From contig NZ_DS483467.1 in assembly GCF_000154285.1 (NCBI RefSeq), positions 1-44,434 of the forward strand: a stretch of DNA of 44,434 bases, in the 5' to 3' direction. Position 1 is the stretch's first letter; the number at the start of each line of letters is the position of its first letter. This stretch comes from Amedibacillus dolichus DSM 3991 (GTDB lineage Bacteria > Bacillota_I > Bacilli_A > Erysipelotrichales > Erysipelotrichaceae). A program made the position numbers and the translations under genes. The notes under the pieces were generated by a model. It did no database searches, had not been told where the DNA came from, and was given only the letters and a program-made list of their open reading frames with translations. This document shows positions 28,874-43,584 of this stretch, piece by piece.

Positions 28874-29743
28874 ATGCATTTTGTGAAAGCAAAAACGATC
28901 TTAAATGCACATAATGGAATGAATTTGTATCGTGGTTGTCAGCATGGTTGTATCTATTGTGATTCTCGTAGTACCTGTTATCAAATGTCTCATAGCTTTG
29001 AGGATATCGAAGTCAAAGAAAATGCTTTGCAGCTTTTAGAAGCAGCACTGTGTAAAAAGCGAAAGAAATGTATGATTGGAACGGGAGCTATGAGTGATCC
29101 CTATATGCCGTTGGAGCGCCATTTACAATATACCCGAAAGGCTCTTATGTTGATTGAGCAATATGGCTTTGGCGTAACGATTTTAACGAAATCAAGTGAT
29201 GTGCTGAATGATTTGGATCTATTAGAGCGTATTTCTAAAAAGACGAAATGTGTTGTACAAATGACATTAACAAGCTATGACGAGGTCTTGTGTAAAAAAT
29301 TAGAGCCGCATGTTTCTACTACCTATGAACGCTATTTAGCATTAAAGACTTTACAGGCACATGGCATACCTACGATTGTATGGCTTGATCCGATTCTTCC
29401 GTTTATCAATGATACAGAGGAAAATCTAAAAGGAATCTTGGACTATTGTATAGATGCAGGAGTCAAAGGGATCGTCTGTTTTGGTTTCGGGTTGACGCTA
29501 AGAGAAGGAAATCGAGAATATTTTTATTCACAGTTGGATCATCATTTTCCCGGCTTAAGCCAAGTATATATCAGACGGTATGGAAATCGTTATGAGGTGG
29601 ATAGTCCGAATCATGCACGACTGATGAAGATGTTTTGTGATACATGTAAAAAAGAGAATATTTTATATAAGATAGATGAAATATTTGCATACTTACACAG
29701 CTTTGAAGAAGCAAAAGTCTACGAACAATTGCATTTGTTTTAA
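28874..29743 (+). CDS. Radical SAM protein, SPL (spore photoproduct lyase-like) family
   Basis: This 289-residue protein has the radical SAM cluster motif CQHGCIYC (Cys22, Cys26, Cys29; spacing C-x3-C-x2-C) in the context LYRGCQHGCIYCDSRS, typical of the Rv2578c/SplB-like group. GTGAMSDPYMPLE and the TKS segment at the strand ends fit a full TIM barrel. Members of this group other than true spore photoproduct lyase have no settled function, possibly DNA repair or RNA modification. It lies alone between a terminator and the iron-sulfur genes. Confidence 0.88.
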   Translation: MHFVKAKTILNAHNGMNLYRGCQHGCIYCDSRSTCYQMSHSFEDIEVKENALQLLEAALCKKRKKCMIGTGAMSDPYMPLERHLQYTRKALMLIEQYGFGVTILTKSSDVLNDLDLLERISKKTKCVVQMTLTSYDEVLCKKLEPHVSTTYERYLALKTLQAHGIPTIVWLDPILPFINDTEENLKGILDYCIDAGVKGIVCFGFGLTLREGNREYFYSQLDHHFPGLSQVYIRRYGNRYEVDSPNHARLMKMFCDTCKKENILYKIDEIFAYLHSFEEAKVYEQLHLF

Positions 29744-31799: not shown

Positions 31800-31830
31800 T
31801 ATAACGATGGAAAGGAAGGAAAGAACAGTT

Positions 31831-32490
31831 ATGAATTTTGACTTTACGATTATAGCGGAATATTGGCAGCTGATTATCAGCGGTATTCCATTGATTTTGG
31901 AAATATCGTTTATTTGTGCAATGATGGGAACCATTATCGGCTTATCTACCGCTTTCTTACGACGTAAGAGTAAGATTTTAGAAAAGGTGATTGCAGCCTA
32001 TATTGACATCTTTCGAGGAACACCGGTATATGTACAGTTGGTATTCTTCTGCTATGGGCTATGCTCACTGTTTCCATCACTCAACAATGTTTCACCATTT
32101 GTTTGGGCACTTATCGTATTCTCGTTAAATTCCGGAGCTTATTTATCAGAGATAATTCGTGCCGGTGTGGAAGGAATTGATAAGGGACAGATCGAAGCGG
32201 CTAAAGCTTTAGGTGTCAGCCGTAAGGATATTGCAAAGGATATTGTTGTACCGTTGGCTTTCCGCAATGTTTTGCCGGCAGTGGTAAATGAGTTTATAAC
32301 CCTAACCAAAGAAACGGCGGTTGTAGGTGTCATCGGCTTGCACGATATGATGTATTACAGTGATGCGGTAACAAGCAAATTCTATTCTTTCTTTGAACCG
32401 TTGCTTGTTGTATTCGTTGCTTACTATATTATGAATAAGGTATTAAGCCTATTAGGGAAATGGGTAGAAAGGAAGCTGAAATATGATTAA
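31831..32490 (+). CDS. Amino-acid ABC transporter permease (HisM/ArtQ type)
   Basis: This 219-residue protein is the membrane subunit of a polar amino-acid importer. It has about five membrane segments, the family segment IFRGTPVYVQLVF near residue 60, and the ATPase-contacting EAA loop EAAKALGVSRKDIAKDIVVP. Only one permease gene is present, so it probably forms a homodimer. ATG 31831 is preferred over 31807 because GGAAAG lies 8 bases upstream. It is controlled by the T-box leader, and the ATPase gene overlaps its end by 8 bases. Confidence 0.93.
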   Translation: MNFDFTIIAEYWQLIISGIPLILEISFICAMMGTIIGLSTAFLRRKSKILEKVIAAYIDIFRGTPVYVQLVFFCYGLCSLFPSLNNVSPFVWALIVFSLNSGAYLSEIIRAGVEGIDKGQIEAAKALGVSRKDIAKDIVVPLAFRNVLPAVVNEFITLTKETAVVGVIGLHDMMYYSDAVTSKFYSFFEPLLVVFVAYYIMNKVLSLLGKWVERKLKYD

Positions 32491-33208
32491 GGTAGAGCAT
32501 TTATATAAGGAATACGGACCGGAGGTAAAGGTTCTATTCGACATCAATTTCACATTTGAGGACGCTAAGACGTATGCCATTATCGGTAGCAGTGGTGGTG
32601 GAAAGTCTACCCTTATCCGATGCTTGAATATGTTGGAAACACCGACACAGGGAGATATTTATTTCAATGATATTAAGGTTACCGATCCAAAGTGTGATTT
32701 GGCAAAGGTACGTGAAAAGGTTGGAATGGTGTTTCAAAGCTTCAACTTATTTGAACACATGAAAGCATTGGATAATGTTACCTACGCACTTAAAAAGGTA
32801 AAAGGACTTAGTAAAGAGGAAGCTGACAAAAAAGGAAAGGAATTGTTGGAAAAAGTTGGGTTAGGACATCGTATTGATTCCTATCCGCATCAGTTAAGTG
32901 GCGGAGAAAAGCAGCGCTGTGCTATTGCCAGAGCGCTTGCGATGGAACCGGAGGTATTGCTGTTTGATGAACCGACCAGTGCTTTAGATCCGGAAATGAC
33001 CAATGAGGTCTTGAAAGTATTGCAGGGATTGAACCATACCGGAATGACAATGATCGTTGTTACACATGAGATGAATTTTGCGAAGCATGTGGCAGATTAT
33101 GTTGTTTATATGGATAAGGGACGCATTGAGGAATGCAGCAATGCCAAGGAATTCTTTGAAAAACCGCAAAGTGAGCGTGCACAGGAATTCTTGTCAAATA
33201 TGATTTAA
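32483..33208 (+). CDS. Amino-acid ABC transporter ATP-binding protein (ArtM/GlnQ type)
   Basis: This 241-residue ATPase powers the importer. Walker A GSSGGGKST, the Q-loop region VFQSFNLFEHM, signature LSGGEKQR, Walker B LLFDEPTSALDPEM and the switch segment VVTHEM are all intact. VFQSFNLFEHM is typical of the polar amino-acid subfamily. The start codon lies within the permease gene, which indicates translational coupling, and the substrate-binding protein gene follows after 23 bases. Confidence 0.95.
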   Translation: MIKVEHLYKEYGPEVKVLFDINFTFEDAKTYAIIGSSGGGKSTLIRCLNMLETPTQGDIYFNDIKVTDPKCDLAKVREKVGMVFQSFNLFEHMKALDNVTYALKKVKGLSKEEADKKGKELLEKVGLGHRIDSYPHQLSGGEKQRCAIARALAMEPEVLLFDEPTSALDPEMTNEVLKVLQGLNHTGMTMIVVTHEMNFAKHVADYVVYMDKGRIEECSNAKEFFEKPQSERAQEFLSNMI

Positions 33209-33231
33209 ATAGAGAAAGAGAGGAAACGAAA

Positions 33232-33990
33232 ATGAAAAAGCTATTGAGTATGTGTTTTGTGGCAGCTATGCTGTTAGCAGGCTGCGGTGGTGAGGAAAGC
33301 AAGGAAAAAGAAAAGCTGACAGTGCTAACCAATTCTGGTTATCCTCCTTATGAAGTCGTTGATAATAAAGGAAATCTTTCCGGATTTGATATTGATATTA
33401 TCAATGCCATAGCAGAAGAAACAGGTTATGAAATCGAAATCAAGGACGTTGATTTTGATACTTTGATTCCTTCCATTCAAACAGGAAAAGCCGATATGGC
33501 AATCGCCGGTATTACGCCTAGTGCAGAGCGTAGAAAAAAGGTTGATTTCTCTGAGGTTTATTTCTCCGGAGAAACTTCACAAAATTATTTGTTGTATTCT
33601 GAAAAGAACGGTATTACTTCTCAAGATGATCTAAAGGGTAAGACAATCGGCTGCCAGATGGGAACCGTACAATATGAAGCTGCTTTACATTTTGAGGAAA
33701 CACAGGGAGCAAAGGTAGATGCTAAAAAGGATTATGCTGCGATTGTTGCGGAATTAAAGAAAGGTAATAATGATGCAGCTATCGTTGAAAAAGCGGTTGC
33801 GATGGAATTCAGTGAAGAAAATCCGGATTTCAAATATGTAAAGATTAACGGTTTGGCAGATTTGGAAGGAAATGCAATTTGCTTCAAAAAAGGATCTCCG
33901 CTTGTTGAAGAAATCAATGCAGCTATTAAAACATTGAAGGAAAACGGAACGATTGATAAGCTTGCTGCTAAATATCCATCTTTAAAATAA
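33232..33990 (+). CDS. Amino-acid ABC transporter substrate-binding lipoprotein
   Basis: This 252-residue protein has a lipoprotein signal with the lipobox LLAGC (Cys18), so the mature domain is tethered outside the membrane. It belongs to the family 3 solute-binding proteins: SGYPPYEVVDNKGNLSGFDI, DMAIAGITPSAERRKKVDF and KTIGCQMGTVQYE are all typical. Arginine is the most likely ligand given the T-box reading, but lysine, histidine or ornithine cannot be excluded. A terminator follows. Confidence 0.94.
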   Translation: MKKLLSMCFVAAMLLAGCGGEESKEKEKLTVLTNSGYPPYEVVDNKGNLSGFDIDIINAIAEETGYEIEIKDVDFDTLIPSIQTGKADMAIAGITPSAERRKKVDFSEVYFSGETSQNYLLYSEKNGITSQDDLKGKTIGCQMGTVQYEAALHFEETQGAKVDAKKDYAAIVAELKKGNNDAAIVEKAVAMEFSEENPDFKYVKINGLADLEGNAICFKKGSPLVEEINAAIKTLKENGTIDKLAAKYPSLK

Positions 33991-42599: not shown

Positions 42600-42699
42600 T
42601 TTGCGAATTTTATCAAGCTGTTTGTTGGGTAAACGTATTGGTAATATTATCACGAGTTTGTTAATCCTTTTATGAAAACTTGAAAAGAGTCGGTTAGTG

Positions 42700-42719
42700 G
42701 CCTAAAGTAGGCTTTTTTT
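42700..42719 (+). terminator. Second, separate terminator hairpin
   Basis: GCCTA-AAG-TAGGC is followed by seven T residues. It lies 100 bases after the nagB terminator with no gene between, so it may end a short transcript or back up nagB. Confidence 0.6.
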
Positions 42720-42776
42720 ATAGCATATAGTAGAATGTGATACGAAGAGGTATCACTACGATAAGGAGGAATTATT

Positions 42777-43040
42777 ATGTGTAACAGATGCAACAACGGC
42801 AGTAACTTTTTCTACAATGGCAATAATTGGAATGGGTGGGAAAATTGGAATCATTGGAATACGCGAGGCTGCGGTTGTGGCTGCTCTGCCAACGATCCGT
42901 TTGGTGAGGTAGAACGTATCGCCCGTCAAGCACGCAGACGTCGCAATTGTGAAAATCGAGCAGCTTGTGAATTTGTGCGTAATATGCGTAACTGTCAACA
43001 GCATCATTGGGGAAGCTGGAATGGGGGTTGTGATTGCTAG
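42777..43040 (+). CDS. Cys/Trp/Asn-rich small protein of unknown function
   Basis: This 87-residue protein has a very unusual composition: ten Cys (2, 5, 32, 34, 36, 58, 64, 73, 85, 87) and six Trp. Four Trp are spaced every third residue (18, 21, 24, 27), and two more (78, 81) repeat that spacing near the end. The ends are Gly/Asn/Trp-rich, and residues 41-75 form one charged helix with five consecutive-type Arg (QARRRRN). There is no signal peptide. Strong AAGGAGG before the ATG, a terminator of its own and an intact frame argue for a real, well-expressed gene. It could be a structural (for example spore- or cell-surface) or metal-binding protein; I cannot name a family. Confidence 0.8.
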   Translation: MCNRCNNGSNFFYNGNNWNGWENWNHWNTRGCGCGCSANDPFGEVERIARQARRRRNCENRAACEFVRNMRNCQQHHWGSWNGGCDC

Positions 43041-43058: not shown

Positions 43059-43088
43059 AAGGGGGCTGTGAAATTCTCACAGCCCTTT
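43059..43088. terminator. Bidirectional terminator
   Basis: GGGCTGTGA pairs with TCACAGCCC around AATTC, flanked by A residues and TTT. It separates the Cys/Trp-rich gene from the converging flavin reductase gene. Confidence 0.85.
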
Positions 43089-43584
43089 ACTTAGTCAATA
43101 CCTTTTCAATTTCTACTACATACACCCAATGATAATCATCGTTAGGATAATTGCTATCCCTTAGCTCATGGTTTAAGAAGCCTTCTTTGTCAAGCTGTTG
43201 TGTAAAAAGTTTACGACCAATCAGTATCGTATTGGCTTCTTCAAAGTAAGGTGTATCCTCATCAAAGGTAATATGCAGATTTGCTTTTTTGATTTTATCT
43301 TCATCACGACCGCTCACTGTTCCCAAATAGGAAAGCTGTTTACGATAGCTTTCATCATAAAAGCTTAAGCTTAAAGTATCGCTGGCATCAACAAATTCCT
43401 TTGTGTAGCGTTGAGGACGAATAAAAATAAAGGCAACCTGTTTATTCCATAAGATACCCATACCACCCCAAGAAGCAGTCATGGTGTTTACCTGATTGCC
43501 TTTTTTTGCGGTAATCAGCAACCATTCCTTACCAATCATCGTAAAAACTGAGCGTTGCAGTTGTTCCGGTGTAATCGTATTCAT
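43087..43584 (-). CDS. Flavin reductase-like (flavoredoxin) family protein
   Basis: This 165-residue protein has the split beta-barrel FMN-binding domain of the flavin reductase/flavoredoxin family: LLITAKKGNQVNTMTASWGG, the RPQRYTKEFVDAS segment and SLSFYDESYR, with the usual SGRDEDK further on. Such proteins carry electrons with FMN between NAD(P)H and partners; the partner is not evident here. AAGGTTG precedes the ATG. The gene stands alone on the minus strand. Confidence 0.9.
   Translation of the reverse strand: MNTITPEQLQRSVFTMIGKEWLLITAKKGNQVNTMTASWGGMGILWNKQVAFIFIRPQRYTKEFVDASDTLSLSFYDESYRKQLSYLGTVSGRDEDKIKKANLHITFDEDTPYFEEANTILIGRKLFTQQLDKEGFLNHELRDSNYPNDDYHWVYVVEIEKVLTK

Follow-up and report, generated by a model that had tools for sequence, protein, structure and literature searches.

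A Cys-rich protein family of Erysipelotrichaceae with a putative role in the spore coat or exosporium

The Cys-rich proteins CsxA, ExsY and CotY, though unrelated, build crosslinked arrays in spores, and the same has been proposed for Cys-rich proteins of other spore formers (PMC7333573). CdeM, which is rich in Cys and Asn/Gly and is reported from C. difficile alone, is required for the exosporium of that species. Its Cys content is 8.7%, and it contains NGNNGGNNNNC and CNCCNCCRK repeats (PMC6101409). The order Erysipelotrichales is reported to have essentially none of the SASPs and coat proteins described in Bacillus, yet some of its members sporulate (PMC10868615), and a lineage-specific coat protein is therefore to be expected in this order.

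The protein described here is encoded in the genome of Amedibacillus dolichus DSM 3991 (GCF_000154285.1), in a stretch of 44,434 nt that was analysed as a whole (contig NZ_DS483467.1, positions 1 to 44,434) and is called the window. Like CdeM, from the exosporium of Clostridioides difficile, this 87-aa protein is small and lineage-restricted, lacks a conserved domain, and combines a high Cys content (11.5% versus 8.7% in CdeM) with Asn/Gly-rich Cys repeats and an Arg-rich element. CdeM differs in having 161 aa with RREA and the repeats named above, a separation made by description. With CsxA (Clostridium sporogenes/botulinum group I) and ExsY/CotY (Bacillus cereus group) the likeness lies in the proposed function, that of Cys-rich monomers self-assembling into a disulfide-crosslinked array. 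Unlike them, the family described here matches no Pfam or NCBIfam model and no PDB sequence, and its self-assembly is only predicted. Our hypothesis is thus a functional likeness to ExsY, CsxA and CdeM, without homology to any family tested.

Gene, promoter box and leader

The gene spans positions 42777–43040 (+ strand, stop included), and encodes 87 aa, in frame from ATG to TAG. It is preceded by the ribosome binding site AAGGAGG (42763–42769, +), and comparable sites were found in all family members. Two antisense ORFs (83 and 101 aa) overlap the gene. The + strand frame is favoured by codon-position bias and by dN values far below dS between relatives, and for these reasons we consider it the real coding frame; homologs with a conserved core were present in 10 other genomes. 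Pattern scans recognized a small terminator-like hairpin with a T-run just 5' of the promoter (42699–42713, +), and downstream a hairpin terminator (43063–43085) common to this gene and to the convergent gene at 43087–43584 (−). The latter hairpin looks bidirectional, with the better T-run on the − strand. The gene is a monocistronic, single-gene unit. The first-pass annotation, made from the window alone, had described an intact frame with a strong ribosome site and its own terminators, and all three were confirmed, the downstream terminator being shared.

The neighbouring genes, as recognized by Pfam, encode a nagB-like glucosamine isomerase, a flavin-reductase-like protein and a PocR-domain protein. 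The genes flanking the family members differ among relatives, and the ORFs listed for the window and for the relatives include no recognised sporulation gene next to the Cys-rich gene. The window has a G + C content of 38.3%. Elsewhere in it we detected a T-box leader (Rfam RF00230; 31558–31774, +), upstream of an apparent amino-acid-type ABC transporter gene set (31807–33990). By eye, we also read a radical-SAM-like Cys motif (CQHGCIYC) in the protein encoded at 28874–29743 (+), 13 kb from the Cys-rich gene. Over the locus itself, Rfam gave chance-level matches only.

Upstream of the gene lies a sigma-K/sigma-E type −10 element, CATATAGTA (42724–42732, +), which reads GCATATAGTA with the preceding G (42723–42732). 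In 10 of the 11 members an exact CATANNNTA was found 48–60 nt upstream of the start codon, and the eleventh has AATATAGTA in its place, with one mismatch; within the window, CATANNNTA has a background rate of 0.0004 per base. This sequence is the sigma-K −10 consensus as listed in PMC3416734. The window’s GCATATAGTA also fits the sigma-E form, whereas the members L005 and L006 have CATACCTTA, a sequence compatible with sigma-K alone. None of the boxes upstream of the members fits the sigma-G form CAWAMTA (consensus from PMC3416734). A convincing sigma-K −35 element was not found upstream of the CATANNNTA box in the members’ upstream sequences. In one genus (L008, L009, L010, L016, L018 and L019), a GGGC(A/T)TTTT..CCTGTAT-like block is conserved about 20–35 nt before the −10 box, and is perhaps a regulator site or a variant −35.

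Between the −10 element and the ribosome site there is a 5'-leader hairpin, GTGATAC-gaagag-GTATCAC (42737–42756, +; fold z −2.5), whose stem score was reached by 8 of 2000 shuffles. Because MAFFT aligned the leader hairpins poorly, the stems were scored one by one by script. A hairpin was recovered at the same place in 9 of the 11 members, matched by at most 56 of 2000 shuffles, and was weak in two close relatives, L018 and L019. The stem sequences change with the genus (GTGATAC/GTATCAC, AATGTCG/CGACATT, AGATACGTT/AACGTATCT and GGCTG/CAGCC) while the pairing is kept, in at least four sequence types. Hairpins of this kind are known from aprE and other examples (PMC7509114). As in the stabilising leaders of the B. 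subtilis aprE type, the stem-loop is short, lies near the expected 5' end and stands ahead of a strong ribosome site. It differs in that its sequence is unrelated and its stabilising effect is suggested by analogy. From its position near the expected mRNA 5' end, the hairpin is likely a stabiliser.

Protein layout and family members

The 87-aa protein has 10 Cys and six Trp, and three parts can be distinguished. The N-terminal arm (residues 1–37; 42777–42887, +) begins with MCN, is rich in Asn, Gly and aromatic residues, and carries W18, W21, W24 and W27, spaced by three, followed by C32-G-C34-G-C36. The conserved core (about residues 39–78; 42891–43010, +), supported by alignment A2 and structure prediction, is a single predicted Arg-rich helix, FGEVERIARQARRRRNCENRAACEFVRNMR. 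The C-terminal arm, the end of WGSWNGGCDC (43011–43037, +), completes a second WxxW (W78/W81) and closes with Cys-x-Cys (C85/C87). The remaining Cys are C2, C5 and three more in or near the helix. An AlphaFold run with three sequences gave a mean pLDDT of 51, at which the helix alone is usable. It predicted one helix at residues 41–78, with low-to-moderate confidence, and disorder elsewhere, including the N-terminal arm (pLDDT about 35).

The ten Cys, the four Trp spaced by three, the second WxxW, the GCGCGC stretch and the CDC end noted in the first-pass annotation are thus all present in the sequence. Its description of Trp at every third position is right for W18–W27 and does not extend beyond that one stretch. 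The W..W..W..W pattern occurred in 107 of 200,000 shuffles of the protein’s own composition, so the array is non-random given six Trp, though it was chosen post hoc.

A first search with the single 87-aa protein against 60 related genomes gave one clear relative. Profiles A1, A2 and A3, built stepwise and searched over 315 genomes of the order, extended the family to 11 distinct members in 11 genomes, the 87-aa protein included. Two further candidates, L003 and L011, were dropped as low-scoring matches inside other proteins. The members are 81–97 aa long and have 10–16 Cys, with two to six CxC per protein. They share an MCN start (MFN in one member), the CxC clusters and a Cys-containing C-terminus, which ends in CRRCW or NCNW in most members, on an arm of varying length. 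Cys number and spacing vary across the members. The central block follows the consensus F..E.eRi....RR..ENR.A..F.r.M, and in alignment A2 (eight members) the invariant residues are M1, C32, C34, F42, R55, R56, E59, R61, A63 and C87. Arg residues of the central helix noted at first reading are thus among those conserved in relatives.

The proposed search of relatives for the WxxW and Cys pattern had a divided outcome: relatives keep the Cys clusters and the Arg-rich helix, and do not keep the WxxW. The Trp array is private to the 87-aa protein; the other members carry none to two Trp and keep Phe/Tyr in the Asn/Gly-rich arm instead. Pairs of relatives are under strong purifying selection. For L010 and L018, dN was 0.037 and dS 0.65, with 2, 4 and 21 differences at the three codon positions.

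None of the 11 members matched a Pfam family. NCBIfam gave chance-level matches only, with no curated coat or exosporium model among them, and the Cys-rich protein had no match in the PHROGs families or among PDB sequences. The earlier statement that no family with this pattern is known thus holds for these four collections; relatives exist and, as far as checked, no known coat family was matched. The 87-aa protein had no match in plasmids and phages, and single-sequence and profile scans found nothing in viral contigs, so that a mobile-element origin is without support.

Distribution and link to sporulation genes

All 11 members belong to Erysipelotrichaceae, where they are spread over five genera including that of the window, with 7 of the 11 member genomes in one genus. 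No members were found outside this family among the 315 genomes of the order and in samples of 296 genomes of the class and 392 of the phylum. Members are present in Longicatena caecimuris DSM 29481 and in a Longicatena sp. MAG; the original isolate of L. caecimuris came from faeces treated with ethanol (PMC8340488).

As a marker of sporulation genes we took SpoIVA, the coat-basement ATPase that anchors the spore coat. It was detected in 40 of the 195 Erysipelotrichaceae genomes (36 over the cut-off), including the window’s genome. Among the 124 good-quality genomes, 32 have SpoIVA, as do all nine that carry a member (Fisher p 2e-6). One member genome, 66% complete, shows no SpoIVA. By genus, SpoIVA was present in 5/5 member genera versus 20/59 overall (p 0.003), which is the fairer figure, because relatedness inflates the genome-level p. 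Since seven of the member genomes come from one genus, the co-occurrence is partly phylogenetic. A further 25 spoIVA-bearing genomes of Erysipelotrichaceae gave weak matches only, none of them a Cys-rich MCN protein. The protein is therefore not a universal coat component, and the family either represents one solution among several or has diverged past detection elsewhere.

The window’s genome has candidates for four sporulation sigma factors (sigma-K-, sigma-E-, sigma-G- and sigma-F-like), with names assigned from scores and gene order. The sigma-K-like factor scored 295.1 against a curated cut-off of 298.65 bits, 3.5 bits below it. Two adjacent factors are arranged as would be expected for sigE-sigG, and another is sigF-like. 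Despite SpoIVA and these sporulation-type sigma factors, the coat protease YabG (PF05582) was not found in this genome. Alpha/beta SASPs (PF00269) also had no match there, nor did the 87-aa protein match PF00269. This model was absent from all but one of the 195 family genomes, the lone match being on a MAG 83% complete, and the same loss has been reported for the order (PMC10868615). The absence of YabG and of alpha/beta SASPs counts against assuming that the window’s genome gives rise to normal spores.

Possible functions

The occurrence of the members in spoIVA-bearing genomes and the conserved sigma-K-type −10 element favour a role in the spore envelope. On these grounds the Cys-rich protein is probably a lineage-specific, mother-cell-expressed, disulfide-crosslinked structural protein of the spore coat or exosporium. 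Weighing against this reading are the absence of recognised sporulation genes beside the gene, the lack of a clear −35 element and the 25 spoIVA-bearing genomes that gave weak matches only. Of the three suggestions made in the first-pass annotation, a coat or surface protein held together by disulfide crosslinks is the best supported, though still putative. The other two, a metal-binding protein and a modified peptide, gained no positive support.

A metallothionein-like protein, storing or buffering metal ions such as Zn or Cu via its CxC clusters, possibly during sporulation, would account for the alternating Cys (GCGCGC, CDC) and several His of the 87-aa protein, and for the CxC clusters in every member. 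However, a metal site would usually fix the spacing of its Cys, and here their number and positions vary; conservation is strongest in the Arg helix and not in the Cys, there was no match to a metallothionein model, and the family is restricted to spoIVA-bearing genomes. We regard this function as unlikely.

A spore-core or forespore protein, in which the Arg-rich helix binds DNA and substitutes for the absent alpha/beta SASPs, would agree with the near-complete loss of SASPs from these genomes and with the conserved Arg residues, at a net charge of 0 to +4 among the members. But this charge is low, 10–16 Cys are unlike any DNA-coating SASP, the upstream box fits the mother-cell form CATANNNTA and not CAWAMTA, and the protein is missing from the 25 other spoIVA-bearing genomes, and almost all of these are without SASPs too. 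Such a role is very improbable. We give just as little credence to a RiPP precursor with thioether or disulfide crosslinks. The protein is small and rich in Cys and Trp, and its conserved block lies next to Cys-rich arms that vary; yet this block is central, where a leader would be N-terminal, and no RiPP model was matched. In ORF lists read by eye, no maturation enzyme or exporter adjoins the gene in the window and no maturation enzyme adjoins it in the relatives, among which the neighbours vary. A non-functional or fast-evolving orphan frame, to which the low-complexity composition and narrow distribution might point, is hardly credible given the purifying selection, the conserved core, and the promoter box and leader hairpin kept across genera.

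For a coat or exosporium protein, the mother cell would transcribe the gene late in sporulation from the sigma-K-type promoter, and the 5' hairpin would probably protect the leader, giving a long-lived, well-translated mRNA. In the predicted product, the central Arg-rich helix is flanked by two flexible Asn/Gly/aromatic arms that hold the CxC clusters. The helix may pack or dock the monomers, and the arms may then crosslink via disulfides into an insoluble sheet round the forespore, as in the ExsY, CsxA and CdeM layers. Much more tentatively, the family might provide a main structural protein for the coat of some Erysipelotrichaceae spores. It would then be a substitute that evolved independently in an order from which the classical coat proteins and SASPs have been lost, and its aromatic (Trp/Phe), Asn-rich arm would aid self-assembly before disulfide locking.

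Erysipelotrichales are common gut bacteria, and the family gives a candidate for the shell composition of their spores. It points to a defined gene that bears a promoter and leader signature and is present in a cultured species, Longicatena caecimuris. As a putative spore surface protein, it would be a further example for the idea that crosslinking of the spore surface by Cys-rich proteins has evolved repeatedly, from unrelated proteins.
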